Source: Rhodococcus sp. ARC_M5
GTDB taxonomy: Bacteria > Actinomycetota > Actinomycetes > Mycobacteriales > Mycobacteriaceae
Assembly (NCBI RefSeq): GCF_022810405.1
Contig: NZ_JALGQE010000016.1
Span: forward strand, 1-64,000
Length of the DNA: 64,000 bases
Reading direction: 5' to 3'
The notes beneath the pieces are model-generated. The model was not told the DNA's origin. It saw only the letters and a list, made by a program, of their open reading frames with translations, and ran no database searches. The translations under genes and the position numbers were made by a program. Shown piece after piece: positions 47,966 through 54,275 of the stretch (the stretch's first letter is position 1; the number at the start of each line of letters is the position of its first letter).

Positions 47966-50900
47966 GTGCCCGACGTCGTGACAGATTCATCAGCTGGTCC
48001 GCCCGTCCCCGCTCCACTGCGAGCCTCGGACGAACTTCGTGCTCAGGTACGAGTTCCCCGGCTGATCGCCATGGTCGCCGGCGTGCTCGGCGTACTGTTC
48101 GCGCTGATCACTCCGTTTGCACCCGTCACGCAGACCACCGCCACCATCGAATGGCCCCAGAACGGGCTGCTGCAGGACGTGGACGCCCCACTGGTGTCCC
48201 AGGCACCTCTGAGCCTGACTGCGACCCTCCCGTGCTCTGCCGTCGCCTCACTCCCCGCGTCGGGCGGGCTGTTGCTGGCGACTGCTCCCCCGCAAGGCGA
48301 AGGCGCCGCACTGAACAGTCTGTTCGTTCGCGTCGGCGAGGCGAACGTGGACGTTCTCGACCGAAACGTCGTCGTCGCGACGGCACCTCGCGCCGACGTC
48401 CAGAGCACCCGCTGCGCGGCCATCGAGATCACCTCGAACGACGAGTACACCTCGGCGGCCTTCACCGGAATCACCGACGACGACGGCCAGCCGATCCAGG
48501 GCAGGCTCGACGGCGACCTCCGTCCCCAGGTCGTCGGCATCTTCAGCGATCTCAGTGGCGCGGCTCCGGCCGACATGTCCGTCACCGTCGACGTCGACTC
48601 CCGCTTCTCGTCGTCGCCGACGCTGCTCAAGTCCTTGATCATGATCCTCGCGATCGCCTGCACCCTGCTGGCCATCGGCGCACTCGGTCGGCTCGACGGC
48701 ACCGACGGTCGCGCGCACCGCCGCTTCTTCCCCTCTCACTGGTGGAAGTTCACCGGCGTCGACGTCACCGTTCTCGGCGTGCTGGTGGGCTGGCACTTCG
48801 TCGGCGCGAACACCTCCGACGACGGCTACTTGCTCACGATGGCCCGCGCCGCGGACCACTCCGGCTACATGGCCAACTACTTCCGCTGGTTCGGCGTACC
48901 CGAGGCCCCGTTCGGCTGGTATTACGACGTACTCGCAGTCTTCGCCAAGATCTCGACCGCCAGCCCGTGGATGCGACTGCCCGCCCTCATCGCAGGCGTC
49001 CTCTGCTGGATGGTGATCAGCCGTGAGGTGGTGCCACGCCTCGGACGCGCCGTCCGCAAATCCAACGTCGCCCTGTGGACCGGCGGACTGGTGTTCCTCG
49101 CGTTCTGGCTGCCGTACAACAACGGTCTGCGTCCCGAACCGATCGTCGCCCTCGGCGCATTGCTCACCTGGTGCTCGGTGGAACGATCCATCGCCACCGG
49201 TCGACTGCTCCCCGCCGCCGCAGCATGTCTCATCGGAGCCTTCACCCTCGCCGCAGCGCCGACCGGATTGATGTGTGTGGCAGCACTTCTCGCCGGGGCC
49301 CGCCCCATCGCGCGCATCGTCGTCCGACGCCACCGCCAGGTCGGCACCCTCGCGATGCTCGCCCCGCTGGCTGCAGCAGGCGTACTGGTACTCGTCGTCG
49401 TCTTCGCCGACCAGACGTACGCGACGGTCATCGAGTCCACCCGAGTCCGCACCATCATCGGCCCCAACGAGGCCTGGTACCAGGACTTCCTGCGTTACTA
49501 CTACCTCTTCGTCCAGACCGTCGACGGCTCGGTCGCACGCCGCTTCGCGTTCCTGACGATGATCCTGTGCCTGTTCACGACACTGTTCGTGCTGCTTCGC
49601 CGCCGACGCATCCCCGGCATCTCGAACGGACCGGCCTGGCGACTCCTCGGCGTCGTCCTCGGCACCATCTTCTTCATGATGTTCAACCCCACCAAGTGGA
49701 CTCACCACTTCGGTTCCTACGCCGGAATCGCCGGTGGCCTGGCCGCGCTGACGGCCGTCGCCGTCTCGGCCAGCGCCCTGCGCTCGCGGCGCAACCGATC
49801 GCTGTTCACAGCCGGGCTGATGTTCGTTCTCGCACTGTCGTTCTCGGGCATCAACGGCTACTGGTACGTCTCGAGCTACGGCGTGCCGTGGTTCGACAAG
49901 ACGGTGTCGCTGAGCGGCAACGAATCGGGCACCCTGTTCCTCATCCTCTTCGGACTGGTCCTCGCCGTCGCCGCATTCCAGTACCTGCGCGAGGGATACG
50001 CTCCCCCACAACCGAAACCGACCTCCGCGCGCGGCAAGCGCATCCGTAAGTTCGCCGCCGCACCGCTGACCGTCATCGCCGGAATCATGGTGTTGTTCGA
50101 GGTGCTCTCGCTCGTCAAGGGAGCCGTCTCCCAGTACCCCGCCTACTCGCTGGCACGATCGAATGTGCAGTCCGTCCTGGGTAACTCGTGCGGACTCGCC
50201 AACGACGTGCTCGTCGAGTCCAACCCCAACGCAGGTGTACTGAGCCCACTGCCGGAGGACTTCGACCCCGTCGCAGGCCCCCTCGGCGGATCGAGCTCCA
50301 CCCTGCGCAACTTCACTGCCAACGGCGTGCCAAGCGACCTCAGCGCCGACGCCGTGGAAGTCAAACCAGGACAGGGCAACACAGACCAACAAGCCGTCGG
50401 ACCCGCCTTCGAGGAAGGCCAGAGCTCCGGAACCGCAGGAGGCACCGGCGAAGTCGGCGTCAACGGCTCGTCCGCCGCCCTGCCCTTCGGACTCGACCCG
50501 GCCACCACACCGGTACTCGGCTCGTACCAGGAGGGCATCCAGGAGCCCGCGGAGGCGACGTCGAGCTGGTACCAACTACCTGCTCGTAGCGATGATGCTC
50601 CCCTGGTCGTCTTCTCCGCAGCCGGCCGCATCTGGTCCTACGACGACACCGGAGCACTCACCTACGGACAGTCCCTGCTGCTCGAATACGGCAAGCGTCA
50701 GCCCGACGGCAGCGTCCAGGCCCAGGGCACCTACCTGCCCCGCGACATCGGACCGGCACCCTCGTGGCGCAACCTCCGAATCCCGTTGGCGGACATCGCA
50801 CCCGACGCCGACGCCGTCCGCATCGTCGCCAACGACCCCAACCTCACCGGCGACCAATGGCTCGCGTTCACCCCGCCCCGGGTGCCGGTGATGGAGAATC

Positions 50901-51283
50901 TGAACACCATGATCGGCAGCGATCAACCCGTGCTGCTCGACTGGGCCGTCGGACTGCAGTTCCCGTGCCAGCGCCCCTTCGACCACCGATACGGCGTCGC
51001 CGAGGTACCCGAATACCGCATCCTCCCCGACCGCCCACTCGCCGTCAGCTCCACCGACACCTGGCAATCCGGCGAGAACGGCGGCCCCCTCGGCTGGTCC
51101 GAACTGCTCGCCAAACCCGTCACCGTCCCCACCTACCTCGAAAACGACTGGGCGAGGGACTGGGGTTCGTTGGAGCGCTACGAGCAGTACTACCCGAGCG
51201 CTGTGCCCGCTGAACTCGAGACCGCCGACGTCACCCGATCGGGTTTCTACCAAGACGGCCAATTGCGAGTATTCGAGGACTGA
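47966..51283 (+). CDS. embB: Emb arabinosyltransferase (EmbB-like)
   Basis: This 1105-residue paralogue of the preceding gene starts at a GTG at 47966. The catalytic D285-D286 lie in FVGANTSDDGYLLTMARAADHSGYMANYFRWFGVPEAPFGWYYDVLAVFAKISTASPWMRLP, with M292 at the position equivalent to EmbB Met306. About fifteen spans are followed by a long extracytoplasmic region with jelly-roll modules (SWYQLPARSDDAPLVVFSAAGRIWSYDDTG, PLGWSELLAKPVTVPTYLENDWARDWGSLERYEQYYP). The ADHSGYMANYFRWFG block with PFGWYY is closest to EmbB. No third, EmbA-like gene is present. It probably builds branched arabinan, possibly as a heterodimer with the upstream protein. Confidence 0.9.
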   Translation: MPDVVTDSSAGPPVPAPLRASDELRAQVRVPRLIAMVAGVLGVLFALITPFAPVTQTTATIEWPQNGLLQDVDAPLVSQAPLSLTATLPCSAVASLPASGGLLLATAPPQGEGAALNSLFVRVGEANVDVLDRNVVVATAPRADVQSTRCAAIEITSNDEYTSAAFTGITDDDGQPIQGRLDGDLRPQVVGIFSDLSGAAPADMSVTVDVDSRFSSSPTLLKSLIMILAIACTLLAIGALGRLDGTDGRAHRRFFPSHWWKFTGVDVTVLGVLVGWHFVGANTSDDGYLLTMARAADHSGYMANYFRWFGVPEAPFGWYYDVLAVFAKISTASPWMRLPALIAGVLCWMVISREVVPRLGRAVRKSNVALWTGGLVFLAFWLPYNNGLRPEPIVALGALLTWCSVERSIATGRLLPAAAACLIGAFTLAAAPTGLMCVAALLAGARPIARIVVRRHRQVGTLAMLAPLAAAGVLVLVVVFADQTYATVIESTRVRTIIGPNEAWYQDFLRYYYLFVQTVDGSVARRFAFLTMILCLFTTLFVLLRRRRIPGISNGPAWRLLGVVLGTIFFMMFNPTKWTHHFGSYAGIAGGLAALTAVAVSASALRSRRNRSLFTAGLMFVLALSFSGINGYWYVSSYGVPWFDKTVSLSGNESGTLFLILFGLVLAVAAFQYLREGYAPPQPKPTSARGKRIRKFAAAPLTVIAGIMVLFEVLSLVKGAVSQYPAYSLARSNVQSVLGNSCGLANDVLVESNPNAGVLSPLPEDFDPVAGPLGGSSSTLRNFTANGVPSDLSADAVEVKPGQGNTDQQAVGPAFEEGQSSGTAGGTGEVGVNGSSAALPFGLDPATTPVLGSYQEGIQEPAEATSSWYQLPARSDDAPLVVFSAAGRIWSYDDTGALTYGQSLLLEYGKRQPDGSVQAQGTYLPRDIGPAPSWRNLRIPLADIAPDADAVRIVANDPNLTGDQWLAFTPPRVPVMENLNTMIGSDQPVLLDWAVGLQFPCQRPFDHRYGVAEVPEYRILPDRPLAVSSTDTWQSGENGGPLGWSELLAKPVTVPTYLENDWARDWGSLERYEQYYPSAVPAELETADVTRSGFYQDGQLRVFED

Positions 51284-51301
51284 TCGCCCGCCCCCGCCCC
51301 G

Positions 51302-51350
51302 CGTCAATGGACCCTTGCATACGTCTCGACCGTGCAAGGGTCCATTCACG
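51302..51350. repeat. Palindromic repeat copy A
   Basis: AATGGACCCTTGCA (51306-51319) and its exact reverse complement (51333-51346) enclose a 13-nt loop TACGTCTCGACCG. The outer bases GTC/CAC extend the unit. It lies 18 bp after the second emb gene and could terminate its transcription. It is the best preserved of four copies in the window. Confidence 0.85.
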
Positions 51351-51365
51351 TCTCGGCCTGTAGTG

Positions 51366-51414
51366 GGTCAATGGACCGTTGCATACGTCTGAGCGCGTGG
51401 ATGGTTCATTCACG
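51366..51414. repeat. Palindromic repeat copy B
   Basis: This copy has the same layout as copy A: GTCAATGGACCGTTGCATACG (left arm and loop start) and TGGATGGTTCATTCACG (right arm), with several mismatches in the stem. It begins 15 bp after copy A. The remaining 190 bp to the next gene show no gene and no further copy. Confidence 0.8.
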
Positions 51415-51605
51415 CTGCCGGACGGCTTCACCCGCGGACGCCATCTGACTCCATCGGCCGGCCTTAGCATCCGAGTCCGACAGCGTCGTCCACCTTCCGA
51501 CCGGTGACAGCCGATCCATCCACAGACAGGTCGTCTATCCACAGACATCCTGTAATACCGCCCAAAGCCGTCTGACGTGTCGGTACCGACTTCCACTCTT
51601 CGGGC

Positions 51606-52568
51606 ATGAAGAGACGACTGTGGAACGCAGCTTCACTATCCGAATTGAGCTCGACCGGCGTCGTGACGCGACGGCAGCTTCGCGAGGCGGGCGTGAGTGA
51701 CGCAGCGATCGATGGCAGGTGCGCAGCCGGCGGCCCGTGGCAGCGATTGCTACCGGGTGTCGTACTGCTGCGCAACGGTCATCCGTCGACACTCGAGCGG
51801 TCAGCCGCAGCGCTCGCATACGGCGGACCGTCGAGCATGATCACCGGCTGCGTCGGACTCGATTCGTTCGGATACGGGACCAACGGATCCGCCGGGGAGG
51901 TTCATCTGCTGCTACCCGCGGAAATGCGTCGGGCATCGGTGTCATTCGTCCGAGCAGAGCGGACATGGCGGCTTCCAGAGTCGATCACCAAGGGCAGCAT
52001 CCGAGTTGCTCCTCTGGTGCGTTCACTGGTCGACGCCACGCGAGCCGCGAAATCCGAGGCACGGTGCGTCGCCCTGCTGACCGAGGTGCTCCAACGAGAC
52101 GGCGTGACCATCGACGAGATCGCCGCCGAATTGGCCGAAGGGCCGCGCCGCTACAGCGCGCTCACCCGCCGTGTACTTCTCGAGTTGCGGGACAACGCGC
52201 ACTCGGTGGCAGAACTCGAAGACCAACGCCTGTACAGAACCAGCGGTCTGCCTGCGATGACACACAACTGCGACATCTACGCCCGGAGCGGAGAGTTCAT
52301 CGCCAATACCGACGGGTGGATCGACACCGTGGCGCTGGCACGTGAAATCGATTCCGTGGCCCATCATCTGTCACCGGCCGACTACCAGCGGACCCAAGCC
52401 CGACGTAACCGAATGCAGGCCCACGGTCTGATCGTCGTATCCCATTCACCGCAAGACATCCGCGATCGGCCGACACAGGTGCTCGACGACTTACGGATGA
52501 ACTACCAACATGCTCTCGCCAGACCTCGACCGGATGTCGTGATGCTTCCGCGCGAATCGACCGCGTGA
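51606..52568 (+). CDS. AbiEi-like antitoxin-domain/DUF559-type nuclease-fold protein
   Basis: This 320-residue protein begins with a winged-helix domain of the AbiEi antitoxin type (about 10-60, LSELSSTGVVTRRQLREAGVSDAAIDGRCAAGGPWQRLLPGVVLLRNG), continues with an alpha/beta middle region, and ends in a domain resembling DUF559/very-short-patch-repair folds (about 205-300, DIYARSGEFIANTDGWIDTVALAREIDSVAHHLSPADYQRTQARRNRMQAHGLIVVSHSPQDI). Stand-alone proteins of this kind are abundant in actinobacteria and their function is unclear. No toxin gene of the AbiEii type is adjacent. The gene is bracketed by paired palindromic repeats, and its stop codon lies inside copy C. Confidence 0.75.
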   Translation: MKRRLWNAASLSELSSTGVVTRRQLREAGVSDAAIDGRCAAGGPWQRLLPGVVLLRNGHPSTLERSAAALAYGGPSSMITGCVGLDSFGYGTNGSAGEVHLLLPAEMRRASVSFVRAERTWRLPESITKGSIRVAPLVRSLVDATRAAKSEARCVALLTEVLQRDGVTIDEIAAELAEGPRRYSALTRRVLLELRDNAHSVAELEDQRLYRTSGLPAMTHNCDIYARSGEFIANTDGWIDTVALAREIDSVAHHLSPADYQRTQARRNRMQAHGLIVVSHSPQDIRDRPTQVLDDLRMNYQHALARPRPDVVMLPRESTA

Positions 52569-52613
52569 ATGGACCATCGGACACGTCTGACCGGTGCAGT
52601 GGTCCATCGACGC
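52564..52613. repeat. Palindromic repeat copy C
   Basis: The left arm GTGAATGGACCATCGGACACG and right arm GTGCAGTGGTCCATCGACG flank the loop TCTGACCG. It shares the central TACGTCTGACCGGTGCA block with copy D, apart from one base. The stop codon of the AbiEi-like gene (52566-52568) is within its left arm. Confidence 0.82.
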
Positions 52614-52626
52614 AGACGACGCCCGC

Positions 52627-52677
52627 ACGTGAATGAACCATCGCATACGTCTGACCGGTGCAGTGGTCCATTGACGC
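52627..52677. repeat. Palindromic repeat copy D
   Basis: The left arm is GTGAATGAACCATCGCATACG and the right arm GTGCAGTGGTCCATTGACG, with the same loop as copy C. It starts 63 bp after copy C. Copies C and D are nearly identical in the loop and right arm, indicating a shared origin. Confidence 0.82.
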
Positions 52678-52730: not shown

Positions 52731-54275
52731 CTAGATGGGGAGCAACGAGTGCTTACGCGGACTCTTGTGCACTTCCTTGTCCTTCAGAATGTGCAGGGCC
52801 TTGCGGATTTCGAGGCGGGTGCTCGACGGCTCGATGACCGCATCGATGTAGCCACGCTCGGCGGCGATCCAGGGTGTTGCGACATGCTCGTTGTAGAAGT
52901 TGATGAGCTGCTTGCGCAGGGCCGGGGCATTCTCGCCCGCCTCGGCGAGTTGCTTGCGACTCATGATGTTGATGGCACCCTCGGCACCCATGACGGCGAT
53001 GCGAGCCGTCGGCCAGGCGAGGTTGATGTCGGATCCGAGCTGCTTGGAGCCCATCACCGCGTATCCGCCGCCGTACGACTTGCGAATCACGACAGTCAGT
53101 TTCGGCACCGTGGCTTCGACGAAGGAGAAGATGAAGCGACCACCGCGATGGATGACGCCGAGAGTTTCCTGATCGACGCCGGGCAGGAATCCGGGTGTGT
53201 CGACGAGGAAGATGATCGGGATGTTGTAGGCATCGCTGAGGCGGATGAACCGAGCACATTTGTCTGCGGCTTTGGCATCGAGTGCCCCGGACAGATGCAT
53301 CGGCTGATTGCCGACGATTCCCACCGGCCGACCGTCGACGCGGGCGAAGCCGGTGATGACGTTCGGTGCCGTCTGGCCGGACAGTTCGTGGAATTCACCG
53401 TCGTCGAAGATGCGCAGGATGATGTCGTGCATGTCGTAGCCGGCGTTGTCGGCGTCGGGCATGAACGAGTCGAGCTTGCGGTCGGATTCGGTGATCTCCG
53501 GCTCGAGCCCCGGGTTGATCACCGGTGCTTCTTCCTGGCAGCTCGACGGCATGTAGCTCAGGTAGTTCCGGATCCAGTCGAATGCGGCCTTCTCGTCGGC
53601 AGCGACGTGGTGCACGTTGCCGTTGATGGCCTGGACGCGGGCACTACCCAGTTCGTCGAGGCTGACGTCCTCACCGGTGACGGACTTGATGACGTCCGGT
53701 CCGGTGACGAACATGTACGCCTCTTCGGTGGCGACGACGATGTCGGTGTTGATCGGTGCGTACACCGCGCCACCGGCGCACTTACCGAGGATCAGCGAGA
53801 TCTGCGGGCACAGGCCGGACAGCGCTTCGTGGCGTCGGCCCAGTTCGGCATACCACGCGAGGGAGGTGACGGCGTCCTGCACACGAGCTCCACCGGAATC
53901 GTTGATGCCGACGACCGGGCAGCCCATCTTGATCGCGAAGTCCATGATGCCGGCGACCTTGCGGCCGAACATCTCGCCGACGGTGCCACCGAACACGGTC
54001 TGATCGTGCGAGAACACGGCGATCGGACGGCCGTCGACGGTTCCGTGGCCGGTGACGACGCCGTCGCTGTACAGAGCACCGGGATCGTTGGGGGCCTTCA
54101 CCAATGCGCCGATCTCGACGAAGCTGCCGGGATCGAGCAACGAATTGACGCGATCGCGAGCACTGGGAATGCCCTTCTTCGCACGCTTCGCTATCCCGAT
54201 CTCGCCGGCCGGTTCCTTGGCCAGTTCGAGCCTCGCCCGTAGTTCGGCCAACTTCTCCGCAGTGGTGCCACTCAA
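52731..54275 (-). CDS. accD4: Acyl-CoA carboxylase beta subunit AccD4
   Basis: This 514-residue carboxyltransferase carboxylates a long-chain acyl-CoA to the malonyl-type extender unit used by Pks13. It begins at a TTG at 54275, 3 nt after the pks13 stop, with GGAG upstream. Crotonase-fold features include the two oxyanion loops, [12 protein letters not shown] and [11 protein letters not shown] in the N-half and the glycine-rich [11 protein letters not shown] in the C-half, plus [12 protein letters not shown]. It acts with AccA3 and other subunits encoded elsewhere. The order fadD32-pks13-accD4 is the same as in M. tuberculosis, and the genes are co-transcribed leftward. Confidence 0.95.

Follow-up and report, generated by a model that had tools for sequence, protein, structure and literature searches.

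The locus studied here raises the question of whether a gene and the palindromic repeats that bracket it form a single system. In the window (the whole analysed stretch of 64,000 nucleotides of Rhodococcus sp. ARC_M5, contig NZ_JALGQE010000016.1), a gene encoding a protein of 320 amino acids lies between an emb arabinosyltransferase-like gene and, on the opposite strand, an acyl-CoA carboxylase gene that we take to be accD4. The R. ruber genes in the emb and accD4 positions are annotated as an arabinosyltransferase domain-containing protein and an acyl-CoA carboxylase subunit beta, respectively. The features of the locus, with hairpin scores from R1, a 51-nt model of the repeat, are:

47966..51283, + strand: emb arabinosyltransferase-like gene, left flank (ORF)
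51301..51351, + strand: upstream hairpin unit 1 (R1 match of 70.7 bits; 18-nt arms, 94% complementary)
51365..51415, + strand: upstream hairpin unit 2 (R1 match of 56.1 bits; 64 nt from unit 1)
51606..52568, + strand: gene for the 320-amino-acid protein, with an AbiEi-like N-terminal part and a Vsr/DUF559/MTES_1575-like C-terminal part (ORF)
52563..52613, + strand: downstream hairpin unit 1, with the stop codon inside (R1 match of 65.9 bits)
52627..52677, + strand: downstream hairpin unit 2 (R1 match of 66 bits)
52731..54275, − strand: accD4-like acyl-CoA carboxylase beta gene, right flank (ORF)

A preliminary description of this DNA had recognised four related palindromic units, two per side, with the right pair starting in the stop codon of the gene. 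Both observations hold, for the four units are each 51 nt long and the TGA at 52566–52568 lies inside the first downstream one. All four have the same orientation and form two pairs, with a spacing of 64 nt inside each pair. A unit of this kind, which we call type A, consists of 19-nt arms, approximately GCGTSAATGGACC..TGCA and TGCA..GGTCCATTSACGC, and a 13-nt loop, TACGTCTGASCGG or a near variant, in which CGTCT is invariant across 30 units of the same genome. Allowing up to three mismatches, the core pattern matched four times in the window versus 0.01 times expected from shuffles. The stem was evident from complementarity, with 83% of cells paired in the 30 units versus 25–42% in slid controls; covariation within the stem was no higher than in shuffles of the 30 single units. 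Flanks of 33 distinct paired elements from this and related genomes were 42% C on the left and 46% G on the right. Since position 5/47 is often C.C or G.G inside one hairpin, we considered pairing from hairpin to hairpin, outer arm with outer arm. This candidate was rejected, as cross-pairings in the 33 paired elements were no higher than in shuffles (376 of 500 reached the observed value for the outer arms and 324 of 500 for the inner ones). In the same elements, pairing within the first hairpin exceeded shuffles (2 of 500 as high) and pairing within the second did not (242 of 500). Rfam yielded two sub-threshold matches, both within coding sequence, which we took as chance.

Units of this type are dispersed over the whole genome, where the core pattern, again with up to three mismatches, had 30 matches versus 1 for the reversed pattern. 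The R1 model gave at least 69 matches on both strands; because it scores both strands of a near-symmetrical hairpin, this is about twice the number of units, and the matches correspond to at least 36 distinct units at no fewer than 23 sites (copy numbers from model searches are lower bounds in every genome). At least 13 of these sites hold two units, 11 of them with the 64-nt spacing; two sites flank the gene and 21 lie away from it. Judging from a mechanical ORF list, 12 of 15 dispersed elements are no more than 63 nt away from an ORF 3′ end, and 3 of the 15 are spanned by a further listed ORF. The elements are therefore dispersed hairpins, frequently paired and mostly at gene ends, in agreement with the REP/BIME-type nature initially proposed for them. 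At three places (L005, L015 and L022, on contigs C19, C6 and C68), two of them near contig ends, a unit stops in or near the loop at an identical sequence (GTGCACCGCTCCCCGGAAGTTGGACTGAG...). These interruptions probably represent an insertion sequence targeting the hairpins; the account given in PMC1525189 reports REPs as targets of insertion sequences.

The association of gene and palindromes extends across the genus. All 37 genomes possess accD4, and the gene adjoins it in 28 of them (own genome included), with the emb end in the same stretch in 25 of these 28. Palindromes flank the gene on both sides in 28 of 28, the upstream one being only a partial unit in G019. A bracketing score, defined as the best local match between the 400 bases upstream and the 300 bases downstream, reached 30 or higher in 25 of the 28 genomes, whereas none of 295 control genes, taken from the window and from 20 stretches of 20 kb, exceeded 20. 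The three low scorers carry inserts, located in the upstream repeat (G030), in the gene (G009) or upstream of it (G019); units persist on both sides in G030 and G009 despite the inserts, as does the partial upstream unit in G019. In G030 (L132) and G019 (L143), inserts with similar ends interrupt a type-A and a type-C unit, respectively, in the loop region. The insert that splits the gene in G009 (L146) is IS-like, and that genome still contains at least 61 type-C matches.

The palindromes themselves differ among genomes, and five types, A to E, pair with five alleles of the gene, A to E, which occur in 9, 4, 10 (one with a broken gene), 4 and 1 of the 28 genomes, respectively. The nine allele-A genomes encode proteins 92–100% identical to that of the window, with type-A units on both sides. 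In the allele-B genomes (G003, G008, G010 and G023), accD4 is 98% identical to that of the window and the gene 57–58%. The palindrome is TTTGTTGCA-CTCTGACTGACTGAA in type B, GCTTGAATGGTCCATTCATACGATCAGATAGC in type C and GCATGAATGGACCATTGCAACGGCTAGACGG, with relatives of it, in type D; full units lie on both sides in nine of the ten type-C genomes, mutually inverted. Type E corresponds to G035, in which the gene is inverted at the locus. Such inversions relative to emb and accD4 were seen in three lineages (L185, L188, which equals locus L156, and L202) and would fit recombination between the bracketing palindromes. Relatives having the gene without the repeats of the window, a possibility foreseen in the preliminary description, do exist, but their genes carry other palindromes.

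How these allele–palindrome pairs came to be distributed was evident from two trees, both from quick searches. A flank tree, made from the emb and accD4 ends of the 33 of 37 genomes with the emb end in the stretch, mixed A with B genomes and C with D genomes. AU tests, which covered alleles A and B, rejected flank trees with allele A (p-AU 0.0009) or allele B (p-AU 0.0001) as one clade. In the gene tree (27 rows, G009 omitted), A, B, C and D each formed one clade (SH-aLRT 99–100). Because the flank tree conflicts with the gene tree, gene and palindromes have undergone at least two replacements at this locus; that is, the gene and its bracketing palindromes are exchanged in place between lineages. 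In the allele-B genome G023, the sequence CCGCGTCAATGGACCCTTGCACC upstream of the type-B unit appears to be left over from a type-A left arm. These results do not agree with a MITE-like cassette carrying the gene, as had been suggested, since within the genus the gene keeps one locus and is exchanged there, and since the sole other strong homolog in the own genome (C18:21665-22588, 45% identity) lacks R1 units in the 5 kb of sequence retrieved around it. This paralog was not bracketed at any of four loci from the own genome and relatives (L157–L160). It has an upstream palindrome, CCACTCAATGTGAC...GTCACATCGAGTGG or a near variant, with no matching one downstream.

We ran models of three palindrome types (R1 for type A, R2 for type C and R3 for type B, the latter two built from gene-adjacent units) on all 37 genomes. 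R2 had at least 46–102 matches in the ten type-C genomes and at least 0–26 in the other 27, namely at least 15–26 in the type-D genomes, whose units resemble type C, and at least 0–10 elsewhere. R1 matched at least 23–81 times in the nine allele-A versus at least 15–36 times in the four allele-B genomes (p 0.011), at least 19–68 times in type-D and at least 5–13 times in type-C genomes. For R3, the numbers were at least 17–34 in allele-B versus at least 2–39 in allele-A genomes (p 0.08), and at least 0–3 in type-C and type-D genomes. None of the three models had any match in six gene-less genomes of one clade, nor in G035, of type E. Two further genomes without the gene at the locus, G004 and G025, contain at least 2–8 matches of each model, and each has one homolog of 43% identity elsewhere, which is not bracketed (score 17). 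Another one, G013, belongs to the allele-A/B clade, has no gene that we could find beside accD4 and contains at least 43, 7 and 13 matches of R1, R2 and R3.

The type of the dispersed repeats thus mostly matches the gene allele of the genome. There are mismatches: G015 and G026 have allele A, yet their type-B units outnumber the type-A ones, and G010, with allele B, contains approximately equal numbers of both. On the flank tree, G010 falls together with G030, an allele-A genome, and on the gene tree the genes of G015 and G030 fall together, as would be expected if alleles had arrived recently and dispersed repeats lagged behind. These mismatches and the case of G013 could reflect recent swaps or loss; a looser link would account for them as well. 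When only phylogenetically independent pairs were considered (2–3 per contrast), at most two of three followed the expected direction and none the opposite one, which is not significant. The idea that the repeats might be abundant without any link to the gene, also raised at the outset, was correct in that many copies lie far from it, but not in the choice of family, which follows the allele of the genome.

One orthologous intergenic site provided a closer view of the dispersed elements. We chose a convergent spacer because the own genome holds a type-A element there (contig C47); it was matched in all 37 genomes, with both flanks present in 28 of 30 fetched, in which types were assigned by eye. 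Six of these 28 spacers were of type A, six of type B, ten of type C and four of type D, and two were empty. Spacer type and gene allele coincided in 22 of the 25 genomes with an allele, the exceptions being G010, G015 and G033. The empty spacers, of 37 nt in G025 and 58 nt in G004, contain a plain GC-rich inverted repeat, and both genomes lack the gene at the accD4 locus. In G013, the spacer begins like type A (CCGCGTCAATGG) and continues with a type-B unit. Different families at the same spacer imply either replacement or conversion in place or several insertions into a favoured position. In a non-systematic inspection, we came across neither target-site duplications nor fresh insertions.

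The emb–gene–accD4 arrangement is also found in R. ruber, R. jostii, R. opacus and others. A single plasmid record contained the gene, the R. ruber ‘pmega_4’, with emb and a small ORF on one side and accD4-pks13 on the other. Given this gene order, it may be a piece of chromosome, possibly a misassigned chromosomal contig; emb, accD4 and pks13 are cell-wall genes, expected on the chromosome.

Homologs are much more widespread than this arrangement. With a Pseudonocardiaceae homolog as query, matches (E up to 1e-15) were obtained in 76 of 394 Actinomycetia genomes, belonging to 35 of 137 genera. For 40 genomes, we retrieved one homolog each together with as much as 5 kb of sequence to either side; neither emb nor accD4 was seen in any of these stretches. 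Both flanks shared sequence with a score of at least 25 in 27 of the 40 versus 3 of 109 neighbour genes from those stretches; 13 of the 40 scored lower, and several of the 27 high scorers were gapped, low-complexity matches that did not look palindromic. Hairpins in both flanks, which is all that a flank-hairpin score above zero means, occurred in 11 of 40 homologs versus none of the 109 neighbour genes, and they aligned with each other at a score of at least 20 in seven of the 40. Of 26 named loci, which comprise other groups as well as paralogs and whose flanks were somewhat longer than those of the 295 controls, 14 scored at least 21 and 12 lower (the other 33 of 59 named loci were genus genomes already covered, paralogs, a fragment and two Frankia-group loci). 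The high scorers include loci of Antrihabitans, Actinophytocola, Pseudonocardiaceae, Actinomycetospora, Frankia and Parafrankia, with 27–50% identity, as well as L214, a truncated gene with a non-palindromic match. Genome G082 has a flanking palindrome of 57–59 bp with 20 copies, two of them adjoining the gene (its arms matched 20 times forward and 20 times in reverse, the control never), which is absent from four genomes of the same family having their own homologs. Several dispersed copies have the loop AATCNGATT or a near variant, and the gene-adjacent copies have AATGTGATT or GTCGGATT. TCTGA is present in types A and B and TCAGA in type C, and other homologs possess CTAGA-type loops. We consider the gene–palindrome association secure within the genus and well supported outside it for part of the homologs.

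These comparisons bear on the possibility that the repeats are MITEs moved by some other transposase and that the spacers around the gene are simply a hot spot for them. In favour of this, the elements prefer gene ends, lie mostly away from the gene (21 of at least 23 sites) and fill one orthologous spacer with different families, as a hot spot would. However, a hot spot does not account for five palindrome types pairing with five alleles at one locus, nor for bracketing that recurs at other loci while 0 of 109 neighbour genes have hairpins in both flanks. In addition, a search for Y1_Tnp (HUH/Y1 transposase, PF01797), restricted to the Y1 family, detected none in the own genome and, as RAYT-type candidate, one in only 1 of the 37 genus genomes. 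We therefore regard independent MITEs as very improbable. The single match, of IS200/IS605 type, is found in G030 (L360, G030:C38:16734-17096).

The predicted protein offers clues about what the gene might do. Residues 15–191 match the PADLOC AbiEi models (best E 1.5e-7), whereas Pfam AbiEi_4 reaches 14.5 bits, under its cut-off of 25; the AbiEi label of the preliminary description can be kept for the N-terminal part on the former match and falls short by the Pfam threshold. An AbiEi part was detected in the N-terminal half of seven of ten distant homologs (Pfam, E up to 0.1), with AbiEi_4 over the cut-off in three. The window protein itself matches no DUF559/MTES_1575-type nuclease profile, and its C-terminal part was assigned by alignment with homologs that do so below threshold: DUF559 or MTES_1575 appeared in the C-terminal part of eight of the ten (Pfam, E up to 0.1), always under the curated cut-offs. 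In an alignment of 24 homologs, D236 never varies, and S200, E203, D249 and H254 hardly do. A profile of these 24 searched against the PDB weakly matched the endonuclease-like 3hrl over residues 201–305 (E 0.035), slightly outscored by an unrelated serine protease (E 0.018), and two abortive-infection proteins over residues 11–63 (E 0.5–0.6). The PDB matches are weak but ordered as expected, abortive-infection proteins at the N-terminal and endonuclease at the C-terminal side, and a Vsr/DUF559-type nuclease is a weakly supported prediction for the C-terminal part. Endonucleases resembling DUF559, MTES_1575 and Vsr presumably belong to the PD-(D/E)XK fold class; those would share with our protein the C-terminal alignment of the eight homologs, all below cut-off, and differ from it by lacking the AbiEi-like fusion and the tie to dispersed palindromes. 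NCBIfam contained no family for the window protein (E up to 1) or for six homologs (E up to 0.01). The gene is under purifying selection, with a median dN/dS of 0.10 over 36 pairs from the nine allele-A genomes.

The AbiEi-like part recalls the AbiE type IV toxin–antitoxin systems, and the gene might be a toxin–antitoxin or phage-defence gene, an AbiEi-like and nuclease fusion exchanged between strains, with the palindromes serving as operators or self marks. Defence genes are often exchanged between strains, and both the PADLOC matches and the in-place exchange of alleles are in line with this. Nevertheless, the gene differs from AbiE by its extra nuclease-like C-terminal part and its bracketing palindromes; its neighbours at the locus are emb and accD4, with no AbiEii toxin gene adjoining it; operators would fail to explain the downstream copies or at least 20 dispersed ones; and none of 50,697 phage records contained a match. 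A role in defence appears improbable to us.

The main rival explanation is that the gene encodes a host regulator, a domesticated DNA-binding protein, and that the palindromes are chromosomal sites at gene ends, acting as terminators or in chromosome organisation and spread by recombination rather than by the protein. The position of 12 of 15 dispersed elements close to ORF 3′ ends, the plain inverted repeat at the orthologous site in G004 and G025, the low dN/dS and the AbiEi-type N-terminus are all compatible with such a regulator. It leaves unexplained, though, why repeats lie on both flanks of the gene and of some homologs at unrelated loci, why D236, D249 and H254 are conserved in the C-terminal part, and why gene and repeats are exchanged together in place. 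On balance, a host regulator seems unlikely, if more plausible than a defence gene.

We favour instead, as a fairly probable reading, that the gene and the palindromes constitute one repeat system comparable to that of REPs and their RAYT transposases, with an unrelated protein. As in REP/RAYT systems (‘REPtrons’, TnpA-REP), for which bracketing, gene–palindrome co-evolution and cognate abundance are described in the accounts of PMC2817692 and PMC8266576, the gene is bracketed by its own palindromes, cognate palindromes are scattered over the genome and frequently dimeric, palindrome type varies with gene type, and gene presence correlates with repeat abundance. In contrast to REP/RAYT systems, the bracketed gene encodes AbiEi-like and Vsr/DUF559-like parts instead of an HUH/Y1 transposase, stems are long and loops measure 13 nt, and inspection by eye shows no GTAG in the consensus units of types A, B and C; copies amount to at least 36 units here, while REPs usually exceed 100 according to PMC2817692. 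Because RAYT-type domains were not detected in 36 of 37 genomes and the gene between the palindromes matches other profiles, we hold that the system resembles REP/RAYT without being a member of it. It also resembles the CGTC-tagged REPs, described in PMC3733652 as short palindromes that are dispersed but have no dedicated transposase known for them. Here, however, the CGTC-like start (GCGTC) lies in the stem, other units having GCGTG and type C GCTTG or GCTTC, the loop has 13 instead of 4–5 nt, and a candidate dedicated gene is present. The main text of PMC3733652 makes no mention of Rhodococcus, Frankia, Mycobacter- or Actinobact-, and among the papers listed by our searches of the open-access literature, none linked such genes to palindromes in its title or the beginning of its abstract.

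That the gene might recognise or process the repeats, as first proposed, has gained indirect support from the cognate allele–repeat pairs, their co-distribution over genomes and the recurrence of bracketing in distant homologs at other loci; we think that the protein probably binds and nicks the hairpins and thereby spreads them. The AbiEi-like N-terminal part would bind the cognate palindrome, perhaps extruded as a hairpin whose conserved loop would then be read, and the Vsr/DUF559-like part would nick it. Repair or strand transfer might subsequently copy the twin hairpin into intergenic sites or convert resident elements. With copies on both flanks, the gene would stay beside its substrate, and alleles arriving at the locus could take the place of those already there.

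Dispersed palindromes are common in bacteria, and RAYTs are, to our knowledge, the only dedicated enzymes known for them. One whole class of REPs is described in PMC3733652 as having no dedicated enzyme. The genes studied here are candidates for an enzyme family unlike the RAYTs; homologs were present in 76 of the 394 Actinomycetia genomes sampled, and 40 of these were checked for bracketing. With somewhat better than even confidence, we propose that it represents a second, independently evolved REP-type class, widespread in Actinomycetia, in which AbiEi-wHTH/Vsr-like nucleases would recognise and disperse their own hairpins, switch specificity when alleles are exchanged at their fixed locus and, little by little, bring palindromes all over the genome to the new type. 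The natural swaps, the occupied and empty orthologous sites and the seemingly lagging repeats make it directly testable whether the gene drives the repeats.
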